DNA of 64,000 bases from positions 1 through 64,000 of the forward strand of contig JAFEAQ010000004.1 of assembly GCA_018266295.1 (NCBI GenBank), in the 5' to 3' direction. Shown piece after piece: positions 36,416 through 56,709 of this stretch. The notes beneath the pieces are model-generated. The model ran no database searches, was not told the DNA's origin, and was given only the letters and a program-made list of their open reading frames with translations. A program made the translations under genes and the position numbers. This DNA is from Bdellovibrionales bacterium. Its GTDB lineage: Bacteria; Bdellovibrionota; Bdellovibrionia; Bdellovibrionales; Bdellovibrionaceae. The stretch's first letter is position 1; every line of letters begins with the position of its first letter.

Positions 36416-36466
36416 AAAGCTCTATATTAAACTTGGTCCGGAAAAGCGACCTGGTACCTTTTGTGA

Positions 36467-36844
36467 CTAACGAGCGTAACGCTTGTTCATGGATTCGCGG
36501 ATTTCAGCACCTTCGATGCTTAAGCGAGTCCAAGGAATTGCGCGAAGTCTCTCAGGCTCAATCGCCTCTTCTGTCTCTTCACACAAGCCGAAGCTGCCGT
36601 TTTCAATGCGGCCAAGTGCACTGTCGATTTCGAAGAGCTGACTACGAAGTCGTTCATGCATGTTAAGAAATTCAGCCTCTGCTAGGACGCGGACAGTTTG
36701 ATCGGCCTCATCGCCACCTTTGTCGTCGTTATCCAGATTCAAGCGGGCTTCTTTCACGCGGTTCAGGATGTCCGCTTTTGCTTGAACCAATTTTTGTCTG
36801 CACTCGCTTACCAATTCTTCTGAAATGTGCGATGTCTGTGCCAT
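36467..36844 (-). CDS. DksA/TraR-like protein lacking the zinc finger cysteines
   Basis: The start is ATG 36844 with GAGGGGG six bases upstream; a longer frame to 36907 is not supported. The 125-residue protein has the DksA layout: two-helix coiled coil (about 5-85), with DNDDKGGDEADQ near the tip, then a globular C-terminal part. The finger should carry four Cys but keeps only one (FGLCEETEEAI); the others are Thr, Ser and Glu. It could bind the RNA polymerase secondary channel without zinc, as some DksA2-type proteins do. ppGpp response cannot be predicted. Confidence 0.83.
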   Translation of the reverse strand: MAQTSHISEELVSECRQKLVQAKADILNRVKEARLNLDNDDKGGDEADQTVRVLAEAEFLNMHERLRSQLFEIDSALGRIENGSFGLCEETEEAIEPERLRAIPWTRLSIEGAEIRESMNKRYAR

Positions 36845-37128
36845 CTTTACCCCCTCGATTATTCCCTCAACGTCGAAGTGCCAATTTGGAACTGACCTAT
36901 TAATCACTGGCCGTGAATTTTTTGCAAGAGAAAATCTTAAATTAACTTAAAATTAAATAACTCGCTGATTCCAAAGACGAAAAACTGACACTTCGAAAAT
37001 AACGCTGCATTGGCGGTTTTCACTCTTAAATTCTAATGAAGACTTCTTAAATTTTAATGGAGTCCAAAACGGAATTCCTTAAAAATTCGCATTGCGTTAT
37101 AAAGCTGGACTTAAGTTGAAGAAAGACA
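36845..37128. other. AT-rich intergenic region upstream of DksA-like gene
   Basis: No gene is seen. The stretch contains the presumed promoter of the DksA-like gene and a tandem imperfect 21-bp repeat at 37025-37066. A short frame on the minus strand at 37097-37288 has no protein-like features and overlaps RNA-like folds. Confidence 0.5.
37025..37066. repeat. Tandem imperfect 21-bp repeat
   Basis: Two units (37025-37045 and 37046-37066) match at 16 of 21 positions, each starting CTTAAATT and containing TAATG. A further CTTAAATTAA copy of the core lies near 36938. These could be protein-binding sites in the promoter region of the DksA-like gene. Confidence 0.45.
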
Positions 37129-37173
37129 GCAAAAGACCTCTCAGAATCTCATTTTGAGACGAGGTGCTTTTGC
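37129..37173. ncRNA. Strong RNA-type hairpin I (candidate structured RNA)
   Basis: A 7-bp stem (37129-37135 with 37167-37173) continues, after one bulged base, as a 5-bp stem (37136-37140 with 37161-37165). Inside it is a third 5-bp stem (37147-37151 with 37155-37159). It lies in a gene-free stretch and does not resemble a simple terminator on either strand. Confidence 0.4.
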
Positions 37174-37211
37174 ACAGTGAATCCATGTTTTCATGATTTG
37201 AAGAAAAAGAC

Positions 37212-37272
37212 TCTCCTGGCGGCGATATGAGAAAGTGTCGGAGGTCACCCCAATGACCCCGGCCGCCGGAGA
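37212..37272. ncRNA. Strong RNA-type hairpin II (candidate structured RNA or 3' UTR terminator)
   Basis: An 11-bp outer stem (37212-37223 with one bulged base, paired to 37262-37272) encloses an 8-bp GC-rich hairpin (37239-37247 with one bulge, paired to 37254-37261). On the minus strand it is followed by GTCTTTTTCTT, so it could end the 37305-37679 transcript or be part of a small RNA. Confidence 0.5.
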
Positions 37273-37304
37273 ACGAACGTCGCCCCATGCAGACGCTGGG
37301 CTTA

Positions 37305-37679
37305 CTACTTTTTGGACTTAATGCACTCGATGGCTTTTGCGATCACCTGATCTGAAGCCTGATTCAATTTGGTATTGAGTTTCTGAGCGTTTTGTCCGCG
37401 AAGACGGAAAGCTTTCGCGCTGTCATTCATATTGTGTACTGCTTCTTTAGTCACCGGCTGGCCAAGGCTCGCACTGGTGTTGAGAGTATCTGAGTACTCT
37501 TCAAGGATCGAAGCAAAGCTCTCGTGGTTGCTGATCAAGCTGCTTGAGATGCTTTGATTCGCCTTTTGCATTGCTTTGAGATCATCTATGACTTCTGCAC
37601 AATTGGTTCCTGCGAACGCGATATTCGCCGTCATCATCATCCCTGTGATTGCAATTGTGGTCCCCAAAAACTTTGTCAT
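37305..37679 (-). CDS. Small secreted helical protein
   Basis: The start is ATG 37679 with GAGGAG about nine bases upstream. The 124-residue product has a signal peptide (1-23, ending NIAFAG), two cysteines (NCAEV and near the end IECIKSKK) that may bridge the termini, and an all-helical, Ser/Asn/Gln-rich body. It may be periplasmic. No family was recognised. A strong fold lies 33 bases past the stop. Confidence 0.7.
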   Translation of the reverse strand: MTKFLGTTIAITGMMMTANIAFAGTNCAEVIDDLKAMQKANQSISSSLISNHESFASILEEYSDTLNTSASLGQPVTKEAVHNMNDSAKAFRLRGQNAQKLNTKLNQASDQVIAKAIECIKSKK

Positions 37680-47264: not shown

Positions 47265-47322
47265 AGCGCTTGAGGATTCACTTTTAGGCGTGGTCTGCCT
47301 CTTGCAACCATTCCTCGAAGCT

Positions 47323-48858
47323 ATGAATCAACGATGGGTTTTACCTACATTAGTGACCACTTTCTGCGTACTTACGCTCGGGATGCTTTACATGTCCCGA
47401 AAGCCGGTCTGTATTGATTCCAAAGTCGTTGAAAGAATTGACAGGGCGGGTGAATCCGTTTTCCGCTGTTCCCTGAATAAACACGTTCCTTTTAGCCCCT
47501 ACTACGACGAACATTTGCCGGCGATTGAAGCCCGAGTTCAGCAAGTGGAAAAGTTCGTGGATAGCATTGCACCTTATAAGAATTCCTACCGCCTGGTGAT
47601 CTTAAAGGACAAGCCGAACTACTTCCTCGTCACGAATAATATCATCTACATCGGTGAAACTTTGCTCGAAGCTCGGGGCCATATTGAAAAGGCCTTGCTC
47701 AAGGCTTGGTACCGTGAAAATGCTCAGCATCTTTTTGCTTATGAGAATCTCTTTGAAGAGGTTTACACCGACTTCATGCTTTACCTCGCTAAAGGCAGCC
47801 TCAAAATCGAAGATCCTTTCCGTGGTGCTCGCACTCGCGTCGGCGGATCACGTTGGCCTCAGGTGCTAAAATCAACTCAGTCGTATTGCCAATCGCCTTG
47901 GAAGAACTCCGAGCACTATCGCTTCTGCGCACAGATGCAGCTGCAGGATTCTCCGCTCAAAGACCAAGTCGTCGAGCTGAGCCTCCGCCCCTTACTCGTA
48001 TCGAGTTGGATCGAAGCCTATGACGGTCTCAGTTTTAGAGATCAGTACCGTCTTGTTCGTAATCTTAAAGAACTTATCTCTGGCGATCACAGCCCGGATC
48101 TTCCGCTTGTAAAGACCGGCGGCTTTATTCCCCAGAGCGCTCCCCTGCTCGAAGCCTCTGAAGCCGTGAAGAACATCAGCAATTTCTTGATGAGTTCAAA
48201 CTTAACGAAAACATCTGAATCGCAACGTGTGTTCGTGACTTTGGTGGCAAACAACCTCAGCCGCTATGGTTACAACGATGCTTTGGGTGGAATTAATTTC
48301 GACCTGCTGATTGTGAATGATACGAAGATCAACCCATCATCCGAGCAGTTCAAACACTTCTTGGCGCTATCCAAGCAGAACCCCCGCACGAAGATCGCCT
48401 TGAAAGATCCAGAGAATCTCTGGATGTTACCATCGGTCTATCCTATTCATTGGCGCTCAATTGACTCTTTGCATGCGAACCGCTTGGTTTACAACAAATG
48501 CGGTAGTTACGATTTTAACTTTGTATGGCAGTTCTCTCTGAACACAGAGAAGTTGCTCATCTTGAATGTCTGCAAAGATCAGAAGATCAACTTAGCCGGT
48601 TACATCAAAGAAGGCCCTGAAGCTTTCGGTGAACAGAATAAAGATATTCCTTTCATCCAATTCCATATCCCTTCTTTGATGATGCGTAAGAATCAACTCG
48701 CGGGCGTCCGCAGCGTTTATGATCTCGTCACTCGTCGTGAAATCGACAATCCTGTTTTTCAAAGCTTAGGCTGGCAAAAGCTCCAATGGAGCGAGCGAGC
48801 GCAAGCTTACCAACCGAAGTCCTTCATCGAAGGCATCGAGTGGTTCAAAGTTCAGTAG
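47323..48858 (+). CDS. Membrane-anchored protein, unknown function
   Basis: The start is taken at ATG 47323 (511 residues); a GTG at 47290 would add eleven residues before the membrane helix. A single N-terminal helix (about 7-25, LPTLVTTFCVLTLGMLYM) anchors a large, probably periplasmic domain. It has at least five Cys and paired strands, without a recognised fold. A segment YLAKGSLKIEDPF and a Trp-rich C-terminus are notable. It lies 58 bases after the barrel gene and may belong to the SelO-like operon. It overlaps the convergent GFA-like gene by 14 bases. Confidence 0.62.
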   Translation: MNQRWVLPTLVTTFCVLTLGMLYMSRKPVCIDSKVVERIDRAGESVFRCSLNKHVPFSPYYDEHLPAIEARVQQVEKFVDSIAPYKNSYRLVILKDKPNYFLVTNNIIYIGETLLEARGHIEKALLKAWYRENAQHLFAYENLFEEVYTDFMLYLAKGSLKIEDPFRGARTRVGGSRWPQVLKSTQSYCQSPWKNSEHYRFCAQMQLQDSPLKDQVVELSLRPLLVSSWIEAYDGLSFRDQYRLVRNLKELISGDHSPDLPLVKTGGFIPQSAPLLEASEAVKNISNFLMSSNLTKTSESQRVFVTLVANNLSRYGYNDALGGINFDLLIVNDTKINPSSEQFKHFLALSKQNPRTKIALKDPENLWMLPSVYPIHWRSIDSLHANRLVYNKCGSYDFNFVWQFSLNTEKLLILNVCKDQKINLAGYIKEGPEAFGEQNKDIPFIQFHIPSLMMRKNQLAGVRSVYDLVTRREIDNPVFQSLGWQKLQWSERAQAYQPKSFIEGIEWFKVQ

Positions 48859-49288
48859 TTTTCAGACCCAAGACCATCTCAAGAGGCGCGTTTTGCTCGA
48901 AAGCCGGCACGCCCGCAAGCAAAGTATGTTTTGCTCCCATATTCTCAGTCCAAACAAGATACTGTGGCGTGAAAATACTTAAATCACTCAGCGTCGCCAC
49001 TTTAACAGTTACAATTTCCGGAGCATCAGATATTTCCGCGTAGACATGGCTGCCACAGTCTTTGCAAAAATACCGCTTCACCGTGGATCCGCGCGCCGAT
49101 GTGGTCTCGTAAAAAGCCAGCTCTGTCGAGCATGAGAAAGACGATTTCGGAAGAACCATCATCGGACTACCAAGCGAGCCGCTGGCTCTTTGGCATTGCT
49201 GACAATAGCAAATCCCTTGGGAAAGCGGCGAAGAGGAAATCGTATACTGCACCTTTTCGCACAAACAGCTTCCGGAAATGGTTTTCAT
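48845..49288 (-). CDS. GFA/CENP-V-family zinc-binding protein
   Basis: The 147-residue protein has the GFA fold pattern: GSCLCEKVQY at residues 6-15, CYCQQCQRASGS (about 32-43), and YFCKDCGSHVYAE (about 73-85), each a Cys pair for zinc. The family is named for a glutathione-dependent formaldehyde-activating enzyme, but most members have no proven reaction. It overlaps the terpene synthase stop by four bases (ATGA), so it is the third gene of the P450-terpene synthase operon and may act on the product or an aldehyde intermediate (inference). Confidence 0.82.
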   Translation of the reverse strand: MKTISGSCLCEKVQYTISSSPLSQGICYCQQCQRASGSLGSPMMVLPKSSFSCSTELAFYETTSARGSTVKRYFCKDCGSHVYAEISDAPEIVTVKVATLSDLSIFTPQYLVWTENMGAKHTLLAGVPAFEQNAPLEMVLGLKTTEL

Positions 49289-50151
49289 ATCGTTCCTTGC
49301 ATCTTTTCGTGCAGCATTTGCACTTGATCGAGGCCTTCTACATAGGCCTTCACTGAAAACGTCTTGATTCTTGAATCATAGGTCAGAATTTTTTCACGCA
49401 GAGTACAGATCTCATGTCGCAGATTCTTTATGGCCTCAGCGGCATCATGTTCACTGGAACAGCTAGCGAGTTCTCCTGTGATGTCCCCGTCCATGATTTC
49501 TCTTTGGCGGGTGACAAGAACATTGAAAATACGTCCCATGCGTTGGCCCATCAGAAAAACTTCGCGCATGAGCCCTACTTCCGAAAGATCCAGCTTATCA
49601 CTGGCCATCAGGTCCATCATCGAAACTAAAACCATTCCCATATTGTGATGAGCATAGGCGCGGTTTTCTGCAGGGTTCCCAATGAACGGATTGGCAGTGA
49701 CAAGAGAGCTGTACCGATTTGCCGTGTAGAACTGCGATAGATCAAAGCAAAGGATTTGTTTGAGGTACTGATATTGAGGCAGTCGCTGTAAGACGGTTTC
49801 CATCTCTTTAAAGAGTGAGAGCGCAAAAATCAGAACGGGATGATGATCGTGCTTTAAACGTCCTAGGGATTTATTGCCGCCAAAATTTAACTGATAAAGA
49901 TCCTCCAAGAGTTCAGGATCACTCTGCGAAGGACGGTCGGCATAATCATCATAGAGAGTGATCAGAGTTCCCAAACACAGTTTCGCTCGCAATAGATCGG
50001 AAAAATCGTCCTGAGAAACAGAATTCAACGTAATCGCCGTATATCCCTGAACCAGAAACCTGTTATATAGTGCTGGCGCGCGATGCGGAGCAAACGCCAC
50101 CATATTTCGTTCAATCTGATGCAAGGTATTTTGAACTTTGAGCGCCATCAT
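49285..50151 (-). CDS. Class I terpene synthase-like protein
   Basis: The 288-residue, all-helical protein carries both Mg-binding motifs of class I terpene cyclases. The first is DDYAD (68-72, DDxxD). The second is NVLVTRQRE (210-218), which keeps the three metal ligands Asn210, Thr214 and Glu218 of the NSE triad and is followed by DGD. The 142-residue spacing between motifs is normal. It would ionise a prenyl diphosphate and cyclise it in the cytoplasm; chain length is unknown. It lies between a P450 and a GFA-fold gene, each overlapping by four bases. Two adjacent ATG codons at 50151 and 50148 are possible starts, both inside a hairpin. Confidence 0.75.
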   Translation of the reverse strand: MMALKVQNTLHQIERNMVAFAPHRAPALYNRFLVQGYTAITLNSVSQDDFSDLLRAKLCLGTLITLYDDYADRPSQSDPELLEDLYQLNFGGNKSLGRLKHDHHPVLIFALSLFKEMETVLQRLPQYQYLKQILCFDLSQFYTANRYSSLVTANPFIGNPAENRAYAHHNMGMVLVSMMDLMASDKLDLSEVGLMREVFLMGQRMGRIFNVLVTRQREIMDGDITGELASCSSEHDAAEAIKNLRHEICTLREKILTYDSRIKTFSVKAYVEGLDQVQMLHEKMQGTI

Positions 50152-50160
50152 AAATGGCGC
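50142..50160 (-). promoter_or_regulatory. Hairpin covering the terpene synthase start codon
   Basis: A 7-bp GC-rich perfect inverted repeat (50142-50148 and 50154-50160) with a 5-nt loop holds the P450 stop and both possible terpene synthase start codons. Ribosomes finishing the P450 would open it, which would couple translation of the two genes. Confidence 0.55.
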
Positions 50161-51449
50161 CTTTTGAAAAATACAGGAAGAGGCGATTTCGTGTGAGCAG
50201 TAATCAGTGCCTCAATTTCCGGAGGCGCCGAGTGTGCCGGTCGCATTTCGTAACGCTCGCAAAGCTTTTGCAGAACTAGCGTCGCCTCAAGTTTTGCCAA
50301 CGCCATACCAATACAGATTCTGGATCCACCACCAAACGGCAGGAACGAAAATGGATGCTTGAGGTCATTTAAGAATCGATCTGCAATAAACTCGTCTGGA
50401 CGATCAAAGTAGTCGGGATGACGCTGAATATGTCGCACACTCAAGAACACCTGCGAACCTTTAGGAATTTTTACGCCACCAAGGATATCATCTTGATTAG
50501 TTTCGCGAGGTAAAAAATAAGCCGAAGGATAAAGTCGCAACGCTTCTTTATAAGTCGATTGGACGAGGACGGACTTCTTAAGAGCTTCATAGTTCGTCTT
50601 GGTAAAGCGCGCGGCTTCTAACGCAATTTGATTCTGAACGGAGCCATGAGCGGCCACAAGGTAGGCCGAAAAGATCAGAGAAGACGCCGTTGTGTCATAG
50701 CCTGCAAACATAAAGGCTTTTAACTGATCACGAATAAATGACTTCTCTTCACCTCGAATCGTCATCGCTTTTAACAGAGAGAGTTCTTCATCTTTAAGTA
50801 CTTCCTCTGCGATTTGATCTAACTCAGAATGAATTGTATTTAATGAACGTCTTTTAGATGGAGAAAAGGGGCATTCAGCAATGCTTCTGAGGCTTTCACC
50901 CGCCTTACGATTTAAATCAACGAACGCAGCATTGAGCTTGTCTGATTCAGAAACTAGATCGTGATTTAATACAAAGACTCCCGCTGTTCGTAAAACAATG
51001 CGGGTGAGATGTGGCACTAAATCGACGGGTTCGTTGGCCTCAATAGATCTATCAATCACTGGAAAGATTTCCTTGATAAACCCGTCAACTTTTTCGACCA
51101 GACGATCCATGCCCGCATTATTCATAAGTGTGGCACTTGTCTGACGAACTCTTTGCGCCTCTTCACCTTGAAGCTGAATGAGCCCTTTGGGACCCGACAG
51201 AGCTTTGATTTTCTTTAGGACCAAAGAACTTTTGTCATACTTTTGTTTTTGATCCAGTAAGATGTGCTGGGCGTGATGAGGATCGTAAGAAAAAAAGAAC
51301 CGTCGGAATCCCAGGTTCAATTCGACGGGTTTGCTTGTATCCTCTGGCAAGTACCTATCGAAAAATCCGTAGGGATCATTCTGAAAGGCCATGAGTCGGC
51401 CGATGGGGTTCTGTTTGAGTAGTTTTGTGATTGGGCATTTCGATTCCAT
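50148..51449 (-). CDS. Cytochrome P450
   Basis: The 433-residue protein has the I-helix oxygen-binding AGYDTT (249-254), the K-helix ExxR (Glu302-Arg305, KEALR), and the heme-binding FGGGSRICIG with ligand Cys379. It has no N-terminal membrane anchor, so it is a soluble bacterial P450 that needs a ferredoxin and reductase. It heads an operon with a terpene synthase and a GFA-like protein. Oxidation of the terpene product is the natural inference. An inverted repeat upstream may control the operon. Confidence 0.93.
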   Translation of the reverse strand: MESKCPITKLLKQNPIGRLMAFQNDPYGFFDRYLPEDTSKPVELNLGFRRFFFSYDPHHAQHILLDQKQKYDKSSLVLKKIKALSGPKGLIQLQGEEAQRVRQTSATLMNNAGMDRLVEKVDGFIKEIFPVIDRSIEANEPVDLVPHLTRIVLRTAGVFVLNHDLVSESDKLNAAFVDLNRKAGESLRSIAECPFSPSKRRSLNTIHSELDQIAEEVLKDEELSLLKAMTIRGEEKSFIRDQLKAFMFAGYDTTASSLIFSAYLVAAHGSVQNQIALEAARFTKTNYEALKKSVLVQSTYKEALRLYPSAYFLPRETNQDDILGGVKIPKGSQVFLSVRHIQRHPDYFDRPDEFIADRFLNDLKHPFSFLPFGGGSRICIGMALAKLEATLVLQKLCERYEMRPAHSAPPEIEALITAHTKSPLPVFFKRRHL

Positions 51450-51484: not shown

Positions 51485-51525
51485 GTTCAATAAAGTTATA
51501 AACCAATAACCAATAGTTATTGAAC
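51485..51525. promoter_or_regulatory. Inverted repeat upstream of P450 operon
   Basis: Perfect 9-bp arms (51485-51493 and 51517-51525) are separated by 23 bases that contain a smaller inverted repeat (AATAAC/GTTATT). The site sits 36 bases before the P450 start and overlaps the mvaB stop. It may be an operator of the P450 operon or a weak terminator. Confidence 0.4.
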
Positions 51526-52440
51526 CTTGCCCAGGGGCTTCAAAAAGCCGACCTTGCCCACTTTCGTGGAAAGCGTGTGCTGGATTTTCTCTGTGAGCCA
51601 CGGATAGATGGCCACCATCTTTTCGATATCAAGACCGGTTTTCACTCCCATCCCATGGAACATGTATGCCACATCTTCAGTGGATACGTTGCCGGCAGCA
51701 CCGGGAGCATAAGGGCATCCACCCAAGCCACCCATGCTGGCATCAAACACGGTCACGCCCAACTCATACGCTTCTAGAATATTCGCAAGAGCGGTCCCAC
51801 GTGTATCGTGGAAGTGCGCTGCGAGCTTTTTCACGGGAATTGCTTTTTTGAGTTTCTTAAAGACGCTTTGTACTTGCGCCGGATTCGCAACACCAATGGT
51901 GTCACCGATAGAAATCTCGTAGCAGCCAAGCTGATGCAGACGTTTTGCAAGCTGCACCACTTTGGCTTCAGAAACTTTCCCTTCAAAAGGGCAACCAAAG
52001 CACGTGCTGAGGTAACCGCGGACTTTAATCTTATGCTTCTTCGCGAGTGCCATTACGGGCTTAAAACGCTCAAAGCTTTCATCGATCGTGCAGTTAATAT
52101 TTTTCTTAGAAAAAGACTCACTGGCAGCCGCAAAGATTGCGACTTCCTTTACGCCGGACTCGATTGCCATCAACATGCCTTTTTCATTCGGCACAAGTAC
52201 AGAGAACTCAGTTCCTTTTGGTGTCTTCATCTTCATGGCAGCAGTCGTGACTTCCATAGAACCCGCCATTTGCGGAACCCATTGTGGTGATACGAAGGCA
52301 CCCACCTCAATACGGCGAGAACCAATATCCAACAGGTGCTTCAGGATTTCCAAACGTGCGTCCGTTGGCAAAACGACTTTCTCGTTTTGCAATCCATCCC
52401 GCAGAGCCATTTCTACTATCGTCACTTTTTTCGCTGCCAT
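51517..52440 (-). CDS. mvaB: Hydroxymethylglutaryl-CoA lyase
   Basis: The 307-residue protein is a TIM-barrel lyase with EMALRDGLQNEK near the N-terminus (metal and catalytic residues), HFHDTRGTALAN with the metal-binding His-x-His region, and the Cys loop GGLGGCPYAPGAAGN. It splits HMG-CoA to acetoacetate and acetyl-CoA, the last step of leucine degradation. It is the last gene of the liu-type operon. The next gene downstream, the P450, starts 67 bases on. Confidence 0.92.
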   Translation of the reverse strand: MAAKKVTIVEMALRDGLQNEKVVLPTDARLEILKHLLDIGSRRIEVGAFVSPQWVPQMAGSMEVTTAAMKMKTPKGTEFSVLVPNEKGMLMAIESGVKEVAIFAAASESFSKKNINCTIDESFERFKPVMALAKKHKIKVRGYLSTCFGCPFEGKVSEAKVVQLAKRLHQLGCYEISIGDTIGVANPAQVQSVFKKLKKAIPVKKLAAHFHDTRGTALANILEAYELGVTVFDASMGGLGGCPYAPGAAGNVSTEDVAYMFHGMGVKTGLDIEKMVAIYPWLTEKIQHTLSTKVGKVGFLKPLGKVQ

Positions 52441-52447
52441 TTAAACC

Positions 52448-52825
52448 TTAAGCTTTTGCTGCTTCAATTTTCACAAGCAATTTACCGAGAACCACTTGGT
52501 CCCCGATCTGACACTCGATTTGACCGATTTTGCCGGCGATCTCCGCTTTTAAAGTATACTCCATTTTCATGGCTTCCATCACTAGCACTGCTTGGCCTTT
52601 TGTGATTTCCTGGCCTGGATTCACCAAGATTTTGGTTACTTTACCCGGCATTGGCGACATGACTTTATCAGAAGAAGCGCCGCCGCCCGCTTTGTTGCGT
52701 TTACGACCTGCTGGTTGCGCATCGACAGCAAATGTACGGCCGTTGAAGTGAACCCAGAGAGTGTCTTTGATCAACTGTGCTTCGGCTTTAAGATCTGCAC
52801 CGTTATGACGAACTTTGATTTCCAT
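52448..52825 (-). CDS. Biotin carboxyl carrier protein of acyl-CoA carboxylase
   Basis: The start is ATG 52825, overlapping the biotin carboxylase stop by one base (TAATG). The 125-residue product has a beta-rich N-terminus, a basic linker (GRKRNKAGGGASSDK) and a C-terminal biotinyl domain with VMEAMKMEY, where the central Lys carries biotin. In most methylcrotonyl-CoA carboxylases this domain is fused to the biotin carboxylase. Here it is a separate polypeptide. Confidence 0.88.
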   Translation of the reverse strand: MEIKVRHNGADLKAEAQLIKDTLWVHFNGRTFAVDAQPAGRKRNKAGGGASSDKVMSPMPGKVTKILVNPGQEITKGQAVLVMEAMKMEYTLKAEIAGKIGQIECQIGDQVVLGKLLVKIEAAKA

Positions 52826-54318
52826 TAGATACCTCTCCAGAAAGTCTGCCATGGCGATTCAACAGTCATAGCGTGAGCGTGGTGAGCATGAGCTACTCCA
52901 CCGCCACGAAGTTGCTGTAGAGCTTTTTCAACGATCTTCTTGTCAGCTTCAGAAAGTTCCGGCTGAGCAATTGGATCTTTAAAGTAAGTTTCAATAAATC
53001 GCGTCGTCATCGTTCCATTTACAAACTCTGTATGACTGAGGATCTCGATCAAGTACGGAATGTTGGTGTGAACACCAAACACAACGGACTCTTTCAAAAC
53101 ACGAATCATTTTTTGGATTGCGCGCGAGCGGTTTTCATCCCAAACAATCACTTTTGCAATCATCGGGTCATAGAACGGAGTGATCTCATCACCTTCCTCA
53201 AAGCCATATTCGTAACGACGGCCCGGACCCTCGGGCCACTCGACTTTACCGAGCTTGCCCGTACTCGGAACACCACCAAGATATGGGTTCTCGGCGTAAA
53301 TACGGCACTCAATCGAGTGACCGTGCGGAACGCGGATTTGTTGCGGATTGAAAACGAACTCCCCTTGGGCCGTCAGGATCTGAGCCTTCACCAAATCCAC
53401 ACCCATCACCATTTCAGTCACTGGATGCTCTACTTGCAAACGCGTGTTCACTTCAAGCAGATAGAACTTGCCGTCTTGAAGAAGGAACTCAACGGTTCCG
53501 GCGCCCTTATATTTCCCAAGCTCCGCAATGGCGCAAGCGGCTTCACCCATTTGACGACGAAGGTCGTCCGTGAGGGATGGCGACGTTGCTTCTTCAATAA
53601 TTTTTTGGTGACGGCGCTGAACAGAGCACTCGCGGTCGAAGTAGTGCATGACTTTACCAGTTGAGTCGCCAAAGATTTGGAATTCGATGTGCTTAGCGCG
53701 GTCCAAATATTTTTCAATGAAAACTTTCGCAGAGCCAAACGCTGACAAAGCTTCGCGCTGAGCGGATTCGATCTGTTCGCGGGCTTCTTGCATATTCGTG
53801 ATGAGCTTCATACCGCGGCCGCCGCCGCCGGCCGCTGCTTTCACGATCACAGGGAAGCCGATATTTTCTGCCTCTGCCATCAAACGAGAGATCTCTTGTT
53901 GCTCGCCTTCGTAACCCGGCACCAATGGAAGACCCGCTTTTTTCGCGAGCTCCTTACAGTGAACTTTATCGCCAAGCGCGCGAATCGCTTTTGCTGATGG
54001 ACCGATGAACACGATGCCCGCTTTATCACAAGCCTCGGCGAAATCGGCATTCTCAGATAAGAAACCAAAGCCCGGATGAACAGCCTCGGCCCCACCCGCA
54101 AGAGCACCTTCGATGTTGGCAGGAATGTTCAAATAACTTTTGGCAGTCTCCGCCGGACCGATGCAAACAGTCTTTGTCGCCATACGGAAAGCGCGCGTGC
54201 CGATGTCTGCTTCGGAATGCAAGAGAACTGTTTCGATTCCCATCTCTTCACAGGCTTTGATAATACGAACAGCCACTTCACCACGATTGGCGATGGCAAT
54301 GCGTTTAAACTTCTTCAT
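52825..54318 (-). CDS. liuD: Biotin carboxylase subunit (methylcrotonyl-CoA carboxylase alpha, short form)
   Basis: The 497-residue protein has the biotin carboxylase ATP-grasp domain: IANRGEVAVRI, the glycine-rich AAAGGGGRGMKL, and VNTRLQVEHPVTE. It lacks the C-terminal biotinyl domain of standard alpha subunits (650-700 residues), which is encoded by the next gene. A short His-rich tail (HAHHAHAM) follows residue 475. It carboxylates biotin with bicarbonate and ATP. With the beta subunit at 55102 it should carboxylate 3-methylcrotonyl-CoA. Confidence 0.88.
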   Translation of the reverse strand: MKKFKRIAIANRGEVAVRIIKACEEMGIETVLLHSEADIGTRAFRMATKTVCIGPAETAKSYLNIPANIEGALAGGAEAVHPGFGFLSENADFAEACDKAGIVFIGPSAKAIRALGDKVHCKELAKKAGLPLVPGYEGEQQEISRLMAEAENIGFPVIVKAAAGGGGRGMKLITNMQEAREQIESAQREALSAFGSAKVFIEKYLDRAKHIEFQIFGDSTGKVMHYFDRECSVQRRHQKIIEEATSPSLTDDLRRQMGEAACAIAELGKYKGAGTVEFLLQDGKFYLLEVNTRLQVEHPVTEMVMGVDLVKAQILTAQGEFVFNPQQIRVPHGHSIECRIYAENPYLGGVPSTGKLGKVEWPEGPGRRYEYGFEEGDEITPFYDPMIAKVIVWDENRSRAIQKMIRVLKESVVFGVHTNIPYLIEILSHTEFVNGTMTTRFIETYFKDPIAQPELSEADKKIVEKALQQLRGGGVAHAHHAHAMTVESPWQTFWRGI

Positions 54319-55098
54319 TTAACTATTTCTCCAACTAGGACTGCGTTTTTCGAGGAAACTCTTCAGACCTTCCTGCCCCTCAGCACTCACACGACGTTCA
54401 GCGATCAGCTGGCTCGTGCGTTTGCGTTGGTCGTCCCAAGAAAGGTTTGGAATATCATTCAATAATTTTTTAGTCTCGCGAACCGCTTCAGGTCCGCATT
54501 CTTTATAGGCCTTTAGCGCGTGCTCTAAGCGAGCTGCGAATTCCGTGCTTGAAGCCACTTCATTCACAAGGCCGGCATCTGCTGCTTGCTGAGAATTAAA
54601 CACGGCACCCGACATCATGAAGTGACGAACTTTGCCTGCCACCGCTTTACGATTGATGAAAGAGCTGATCACCGCAGGTGCGATACCAAGCTTCACTTCG
54701 CTAAAGCAGAATTGAGTTTGTGGATCAGCAATCACATAATCACAACACGCCACTAAACCCAAAGCACCGCCGAAAGCCGCCCCTTGAACAAGACCGATCA
54801 CCGGCAAACTGCATTTCGCGATCGCTTCAAACATCGCGAACAGCTTCAAAGAATCTTCTTTGTTTTGATCCAAAGTGTAGTTCACCATCTCGCGCATCCA
54901 GTTAAGATCCGCGCCAGCACAAAACACTTTACCTTCACCTTGCAAAACCACCGCACGAAGATCCGCGCGAGTGCTCAAGCTGGTGAAGGCTTTTGTGATA
55001 TCCGCGATCATACTTGGATCAAACGCATTACGGATATCAGGACGATTCAATTTTACGTAGGCTACTTGAGCCGTTTCTTTGACTTCAACAAAAGACAT
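54319..55098 (-). CDS. liuC: Enoyl-CoA hydratase/isomerase, probable methylglutaconyl-CoA hydratase
   Basis: The 259-residue crotonase-fold protein has the CoA- and oxyanion-hole motif GKVFCAGADLNWM (about 54-66) and GLVQGAAFGGALGLVACCDY (about 101-120). The catalytic Glu of crotonase is in FSEVKLGIAPAV. Its place between the carboxylase subunits and HMG-CoA lyase makes hydration of 3-methylglutaconyl-CoA to HMG-CoA the best assignment. The stop abuts the next gene's start. Confidence 0.9.
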   Translation of the reverse strand: MSFVEVKETAQVAYVKLNRPDIRNAFDPSMIADITKAFTSLSTRADLRAVVLQGEGKVFCAGADLNWMREMVNYTLDQNKEDSLKLFAMFEAIAKCSLPVIGLVQGAAFGGALGLVACCDYVIADPQTQFCFSEVKLGIAPAVISSFINRKAVAGKVRHFMMSGAVFNSQQAADAGLVNEVASSTEFAARLEHALKAYKECGPEAVRETKKLLNDIPNLSWDDQRKRTSQLIAERRVSAEGQEGLKSFLEKRSPSWRNS

Positions 55099-55101
55099 GC
55101 A

Positions 55102-56709
55102 TTACATCCTGAAGACGCCCTGAACTTGCGGGCCCCATTCTTTGTTCAAGCTCGCAGCAATACCGAGAGCCAAAACGCGGCGAGTATCCGCAGGATCGAT
55201 AATGCCATCATCCCAAATACGGGCTGAAGAATAATAAGCAGAGCTTTCGTGATCGTATTTTTCCAAAGTCGGACGTTTGAACTCAGCTTGCTGCTCTGGC
55301 GTCATTGTCTGACCCTTGGCCGCGATTTGATCCATCTTCACTGTGAGCAAAACATTCGAAGCCTGCTCACCGCCCATGACGCTAATACGAGCATTCGGCC
55401 ACATCCATAACTGGCGAGGCTGGAACGCGCGACCGCACATTCCGTAGTTACCGGCGCCATAAGAGCCACCGATCACAACCGTGAATTTCGGAACACGTGC
55501 ATTTGAAACGGCCATAACCATTTTCGCGCCGTGCTTCGCAATCCCTTCGTTTTCGTATTTCTGACCGACCATGAAGCCGGTGATGTTTTGCAAGAAGATC
55601 AAAGGCACTTCGCGCTGTTCGCACAACTCAATAAAATGAGCCGCCTTCAAAGAACTTTCGCTGAACAGTACGCCATTGTTGGCGATGATTCCCACTGGCA
55701 TCCCCCAAATGTGAGCAAAGCCAGTCACCAAAGTTTTTCCGTACAGAGGTTTAAACTCGTGGAACTTAGAACCATCCACGATACGCGCGATCACTTCACG
55801 CACGTCAAAAGGAATGCGTGAATCTTTTGGAATCACGCCATAGATTTCTTTGGCGTCATACAAAGGCTCAACCACTGGCAACGTTTTCATCGTCACCTTA
55901 CGGCGATGATTCAAGTGCGCCACGATCGAACGAGTGATTTCAATGGCATGCTGATCGTCCTCAGCAAAATGATCTGTGACGCCGCTGACTTCACAGTGAA
56001 CTTTCGCGCCACCCAAAGCCTGAGCATCCACTACTTCACCGGTAGCCGCCTTCACGAGTGGCGGGCCACCCAAGAAGATCGTGCCGTTGTCTTTGACGAT
56101 GACGTTCTCATCGCTCATCGCTGGAACGTAAGCGCCCCCCGCTGTGCAAGAACCCATGACCACAGAGATCTGCGGAATGTTCTGCGCACTCATGCGAGCT
56201 TGGTTATAAAAAATTCTGCCGAAATGATCGCGGTCTGGAAACACTTCTGCCTGAAGTGGCAAGAACGCGCCACCAGAATCAACGAGATAAATACAAGGCA
56301 AACCGTTTTCCATCGCAATCTCTTGCGCACGAAGATGCTTCTTTACTGTCATTGGGAAGTAAGTTCCACCCTTTACAGTCGCATCGTTAGCCACGATCAC
56401 ACACTCAGTGCCGTGAATCACACCAATCCCCGTGATCACACCCGCAGCCGGAGCCGAATTGTCGTACATCTCCCACGCCGCCAGAGTCGAGAACTCAAGA
56501 AACGCTGACGCTGGATCCAGCAATGCTTCGATACGCTCACGCGCTGTCAGCTTGCCACGGGATTTGTGTTTTTTCATTGCCTCTTCGCCACCGCCCAACT
56601 TCACTTGGTCGATGCGAGAGCGCCATTGGCCCACATGGCCCATCATAGCTTCGGTATTAGCCTTAAAATCGGCGGAGTTACTATCAACAAGGCTCTCAAT
56701 TACTTCCAC
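55102..56709 (-). CDS. liuB: Methylcrotonyl-CoA carboxylase beta subunit (carboxyltransferase)
   Basis: The 535-residue protein is full length for a carboxyltransferase beta subunit, with the crotonase-like [19 protein letters not shown], the oxyanion-type [30 protein letters not shown] and [20 protein letters not shown], highly typical of MCC beta and of propionyl/geranyl-CoA carboxylases. It transfers CO2 from biotin to 3-methylcrotonyl-CoA. It is first in the catabolic block after the thioesterase-like gene. The isovaleryl-CoA dehydrogenase gene usually found beside it is absent here. Confidence 0.92.

Follow-up and report, generated by a model that had tools for sequence, protein, structure and literature searches.

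Known terpene synthase-P450 systems and the present locus

Bacterial synthase-P450 operons are known from epi-isozizaene synthase/CYP170A1 and pentalenene synthase/PtlI, and Streptomyces plasmids carry terpene synthase genes with a P450 gene alongside. Bacterial class I terpene synthases (PF19086/PF03936; for example pentalenene synthase, epi-isozizaene synthase and Sat1646) have in common a DDxxD motif and an N-x3-(S/T)-x3-E (NSE) motif about 140 residues apart. A C-terminal RY pair is common among these enzymes but not universal. Non-canonical terpene synthases of classes IB-IF have been described as lacking known active-site motifs, and PeuTPS (class ID) has no effector triad (PMC11234867).

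The window analysed here is a stretch of 64,000 nucleotides from a bacterium of Bdellovibrionota, the phylum of the predatory Bdellovibrio, and it contains an operon of three genes for a cytochrome P450, a terpene synthase-like protein and a GFA-fold protein. The operon resembles the known synthase-P450 operons in its adjacent genes, which often overlap in such systems. It differs from them in the clade of its synthase, in having the P450 gene first, and in the recurrence across its family of either GFA or an FAD-dependent enzyme with a GST (and sometimes a Rieske oxygenase), usually beside a divergent LysR gene. The middle protein shares with bacterial class I terpene synthases both metal-binding motifs at their distance, the helical fold of its model and a full-length profile alignment in register. 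In contrast to them, it is undetected by Pfam and NCBIfam models, is shorter and ends before the RY pair, and its family has no conserved sensor Arg or linker Asp and has invariant residues of its own. Like classes IB-IF, the family is hidden from sequence models and recognized by fold, and, with the effector triad not conserved across its members, it resembles PeuTPS; it is set apart from these classes by keeping DDxxD and NSE, a difference that follows from the description in PMC11234867 and not from a sequence comparison. Because both motifs are kept, the family is read here as a divergent lineage within class I. The operon is interpreted as a small pathway to an oxidized terpenoid, its synthase being a divergent class I enzyme, at a probability of about 0.82, the catalysis being predicted.

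Organization of the operon

The initial annotation described three minus-strand genes joined by two ATGA overlaps, and their coordinates, strand and overlaps were confirmed in the sequence (Table 1).

Table 1. Features of the operon and its upstream neighbourhood in the window
Feature	Position	Strand	Basis
Cytochrome P450, 433 aa, operon gene 1	50148..51449	-	Pfam p450 5e-53
Divergent class I terpene synthase-like protein, 288 aa, middle gene	49285..50151	-	Family and fold evidence
GFA-fold zinc protein, 147 aa, third gene	48845..49288	-	Pfam GFA 9.9e-30
ATGA overlap P450/synthase	50148..50151	-	P450 stop TGA 50150-50148, synthase ATG 50151-50149
ATGA overlap synthase/GFA	49285..49288	-	Synthase stop and GFA start, from sequence
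DDYAD codons, residues 68-72, first metal-binding motif	49936..49950	-	Sequence and family conservation
NVLVTRQRE codons, residues 210-218, NSE/DTE-type second metal-binding motif	49498..49524	-	Sequence; N, T, R and E invariant (23 homologues)
Leucine/isovalerate-degradation-type gene set	51517-56709	-	Ends 67 bases before the P450 gene

The operon is not a chance arrangement, since its metal-binding motifs recur in 23 homologues, which reach down to about 20% identity, and its P450-synthase order recurs in all 18 loci of the family. It contains neither a redox partner gene for the P450 nor a prenyl diphosphate synthase gene, and this was counted against the pathway reading. A promoter scan gave no site and was uninformative. 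A 522-aa open reading frame on the opposite strand (window 47290-48858, +) runs towards the GFA gene, and the last 14 bases of the two overlap; a Pfam search gave no match for this frame.

Sequence evidence for a terpene synthase

The window synthase searched alone against Pfam, NCBIfam and PDB sequences gave no significant match, a result that weighs against the synthase reading. The first identification had thus depended on two short motifs. EF-hand and LsrB matches (E 0.1) were rejected as chance, and the most Pfam-like relative, searched alone against the PDB, returned nothing but chance matches. Judged by its homologues, the middle protein is nevertheless a member of a real family, though it has no Pfam or NCBIfam match of its own. 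The motifs DD-x-(A/G/S)-(D/E) and N-x3-T-x2-RE are retained in 23/23 aligned homologues. They lie 138-143 residues apart in the 22 homologues measured and 139-143 apart in the three classical synthases measured; the 23rd homologue, which is haloarchaeal, reads DDLSE at the first motif. In the window protein, DDYAD at 68-72 forms the aspartate-rich DDxxD/E motif and N210/T214/E218 the (N,D)xxx(S,T)xxxE motif at normal spacing, both at the residues first reported for them.

Among the 23 homologues, PF19086 matches ten and PF03936 five at E<=0.1, with a best value of 4e-6. One homologue exceeds the curated cut-off of PF19086 and is the sole such match among the 192 genomes searched with this model. 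NCBIfam terpene-synthase models matched none of the 23. The profile search proposed in the initial annotation thus led to Pfam terpene-synthase families and to no unrelated family. A profile of the family was also aligned with 14 terpene synthases over 248 columns (P=7.5e-4), with both metal motifs in register, whereas the same full-family profile scored P=0.07-0.47 with each of five controls (P450, LysR, GST, FAD-enzyme and Rieske profiles). The hhalign probability was low (25%) and counts against the synthase reading, though the P-value is small and well separated from those of the controls. The 14 synthases came from plasmid records. They were fetched with a pentalenene synthase query, whose match at 90% identity carries a pentalenene synthase annotation, and only database sequences entered the comparison itself. 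Weak PDB matches, which include Sat1646, Terpenoid synthase 18 and cucumene synthase, were aligned at the NSE motif.

Predicted structure of the middle protein

The AlphaFold model of the middle protein is of moderate confidence (pLDDT 65.6, pTM 0.63) and was built on four sequences. Within that confidence it has the all-alpha fold of class I terpene synthases, as expected from the initial annotation. Its best structural alignments are with terpene synthases of classes I and IB (Z 15.3, rmsd 4.3, 257 residues), and terpene synthases make up almost all structural matches listed. This Z lies above the level of about 13, at which the tool warns of an arrangement common in helical bundles. Foldseek E-values reached only about 5e-3 and ranked prenyl diphosphate synthases first with poor superposition, which was counted against the synthase reading; structural realignment favours terpene synthases over these leading matches. 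Membership in the prenyl diphosphate synthases was set aside, as those enzymes have two DDxxD motifs and this protein combines a single DDxxD with an NSE motif. The first identification of the middle protein as a terpene synthase is therefore supported by both the Pfam matches of its homologues and the fold of its model.

Unusual features of the predicted active site

The effector triad (diphosphate-sensor Arg, linker Asp and effector Gly) is not conserved across the family, and this counts against a synthase. Arg164 lies 46 residues before N210, the same distance as the sensor Arg in the classical enzymes measured, and relatives carry Cys, Gln or Lys at this position. No linker Asp was recognized in the family, and Gly172 is retained solely in the 18 bacterial members. 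The RY pair could be placed in two classical enzymes, at +94/+95; in the window protein it is absent from the expected position because the chain stops 79 residues past N210, and its absence was likewise scored against the synthase. The residues invariant in the family are R24, K57, D137, N170, M171, D180, R196, Q203, R207, R217, D223 and G273.

The P450 and GFA-fold proteins

The Pfam assignments of the P450 and the GFA-fold protein are unambiguous. The heme Cys379 assigned earlier to the P450 is present in FLPFGGGSRICIG, within an FxxFGxGxxxCxG motif. ExxR is found at 302, and AGYDT at 249 forms the I-helix AGxxT motif. The operon P450 is the sole PF00067 match found in the host genome. Against NCBIfam, pentalenene oxygenase ranks first and albaflavenone monooxygenase third, both far under their cut-offs.

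The GFA-fold protein has cysteines at 8, 10, 27, 29, 32, 75 and 78. These form the CxC, CxCxxC and CxxC zinc-binding sets of the GFA/CENP-V family (PF04828) and, with the Pfam match, bear out the zinc-cysteine pattern first noticed in the sequence. The protein scored 35.2 bits against the S-(hydroxymethyl)glutathione synthase model TIGR02820, far from its cut-off of 234.55. By its sequence, it is a generic GFA-fold member and not the formaldehyde/glutathione equivalog. Within the GFA/CENP-V family it is set apart by this and by its location in a terpenoid-type cluster.

Conservation of the cassette in other genomes

Searching relatives and 369 genomes of the phylum for the family gave 18 loci in 18 genomes. 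The P450 gene lies directly upstream of the synthase gene in 18/18 loci, mostly overlapping it and otherwise a few bases apart, so the homologue survey confirmed the conserved gene order that had been proposed as a check. The third gene encodes GFA in nine loci, the window included. Eight other loci have genes for an FAD-dependent enzyme and a GST-like protein downstream, joined in four of them by a Rieske oxygenase, and one locus has neither arrangement. GFA as the third component was correctly recognized at the outset; the accompanying view that it is unusual in such clusters needs refining, as it is a usual third gene in half of the loci. A divergent gene for a LysR-type regulator precedes the P450 gene in 14/18 loci. 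The tailoring-type neighbours (FAD-enzyme, GST and Rieske oxygenase) and the LysR regulator were counted for the pathway reading.

Relatives of the P450 at E<=1e-40 were found in 16 of the 369 genomes; all 16 have the synthase, and each match adjoins it. In addition, P450 and synthase tree distances are correlated (r=0.89), a value equalled by 0/200 label shuffles. This paired inheritance points to one shared pathway.

The window cassette has no adjacent LysR gene. Apart from the cassette, on another contig of the host genome (contig C22 of G000, about 36440-37309; L088:6441-7310, -), a LysR-type gene adjoins an NAD(P)-epimerase-like gene and has 63-64% identity to the regulators beside two other cassette copies. 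The regulator on C22 might act in trans on the window cassette.

Precursor supply and upstream neighbourhood

The host genome has an HMG-CoA reductase and two polyprenyl synthetases, and DXP reductoisomerase was not found in it. Since the reductase is present and DXP reductoisomerase was undetected, isoprenoid precursors presumably come via mevalonate. A study of Myxococcus xanthus (PMC9548883) cites work according to which predatory bacteria use the mevalonate pathway.

The gene set upstream of the operon encodes HMG-CoA-lyase-like, biotin carrier, biotin carboxylase, enoyl-CoA hydratase and carboxyltransferase proteins. It is on the same strand, with the HMG-CoA-lyase-like gene adjoining the P450 gene, and co-transcription with the operon is possible. 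This adjacency was rejected as a general feature of the cassette, being absent at the other 17 loci. HMG-CoA is an intermediate of leucine degradation and also a precursor of mevalonate.

Proposed pathway and alternative explanations

The first interpretation of the operon as a compact terpenoid pathway is supported by the fold, the homologue families and the conserved gene order. In the proposed pathway, an isoprenyl diphosphate made by the mevalonate route would be the starting substrate. The middle protein would ionize it, with Mg2+ held by the DDxxD and N-x3-T-x3-E motifs, and release a terpene. The substrate is probably FPP (C15), GPP and GGPP also being possible. The P450 would then oxidize the terpene. 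The GFA-fold zinc protein may handle the oxidized product or a reactive by-product, perhaps via a thiol adduct; the catalysis, the order of steps and the GFA role are inferred. Since one arrangement has GFA and the other a GST-like protein, there are hints of thiol chemistry in both. For glutathione synthesis genes, the host genome gave only a partial GSH-S_ATP match.

An alternative is that the middle protein is a prenyltransferase with a class I fold, which joins a prenyl group to a small molecule before the P450 oxidizes the hybrid. Domoic acid biosynthesis, with DabA and its P450, provides the model for such a system. One of the structural matches is DabA itself, an N-prenyltransferase (6vkz, Z 13.6). 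With neither the effector triad nor the RY pair of cyclases conserved, the anatomy of the protein does not dictate the fate of the cation. However, no gene for an obvious acceptor pathway recurs in the clusters, and cyclases dominate the structural and Pfam matches; this explanation is considered unlikely.

The operon may also be considered catabolic or protective, with the P450 and GFA oxidizing and detoxifying foreign isoprenoids, in keeping with the leucine/isovalerate degradation genes upstream. The start of the P450 gene just past the HMG-CoA-lyase-like gene on the same strand speaks for this reading, but the other 17 loci show no such neighbourhood and usually have a divergent LysR gene beside the cassette, and a diphosphate-ionizing enzyme has no obvious place in catabolism of this sort; a catabolic role is very improbable. 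Least credible of all is an unrelated all-helical protein whose metal motifs are coincidental, for although its single sequence matches no synthase model or solved structure significantly and structural scores are inflated for helical bundles, both motifs are present in every homologue with classical spacing where measured, one homologue passes the Pfam cut-off, and the profile is in register with classical synthases while the controls are not.

For the oxidized-terpenoid pathway, a role in predation or signalling is speculation. In Myxococcus xanthus, geosmin genes are reported to be induced during predation (PMC9548883), and a comparable predation role is only a suggestion, made by analogy.

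Probable horizontal spread and significance

The window P450 is 85% identical to that of G047, 81% to that of G347 and 76% to that of G302, whereas the carboxyltransferase subunit encoded among the neighbouring leucine-degradation genes, taken as a core enzyme, shows only 75%, 65% and 64% identity, respectively. Against the near relative G024, identity is 87% for the core enzyme and just 37% for the P450. Because P450 identity exceeds that of the core enzyme in distant genomes and not in the near one, and presence is patchy (18/369), the cassette has probably moved horizontally. Base composition gave no separate sign of horizontal movement or foreign origin (GC content of the operon 0.44-0.47, surroundings 0.44-0.52).

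In the open-access library searched, no paper was found that describes such a terpenoid pathway in Bdellovibrionota, or such a terpene synthase in Bdellovibrionota or haloarchaea. Standard family models miss the synthase, so cluster mining based on such models would overlook these pathways in the phylum. The cassette is small enough to be expressed whole, and tailoring enzymes can be compared between its two naturally occurring downstream variants. The altered residues around the diphosphate pocket would test the limits of class I active site variation.

Distant homologues in haloarchaea

Distant homologues annotated as hypothetical proteins are found on haloarchaeal plasmids (L027-L031), with 20-24% identity. 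They carry DD-x-(A/G/S)-E and N-x3-T-x2-RE, and no P450 is annotated alongside them. Haloarchaeal pathways are perhaps overlooked likewise by model-based mining. A wider proposal, put forward tentatively and open to considerable doubt, is that Bdellovibrionota and haloarchaea have in common a separate class I lineage that is largely invisible to models. In this lineage, diphosphate sensing would have been rebuilt around N170-M171, K57, R207 and D223, which would stand in for a conserved sensor Arg and linker Asp. In bacteria, it would be part of a mobile LysR-linked cassette whose P450-oxidized terpenoids serve the predatory lifestyle after a last step of glutathione-type chemistry by GFA or GST.

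In Halobellus limi, a gene for a prenyltransferase/squalene-oxidase-repeat protein lies about 1.2 kb from the synthase homologue. Plasmids of Actinarchaeum and Halocatena (L081 and L082) carry a terpene-synthase-like gene of more classical type with a polyprenyl synthetase gene after it, and the genes of these two loci are annotated as hypothetical and SRPBCC proteins.
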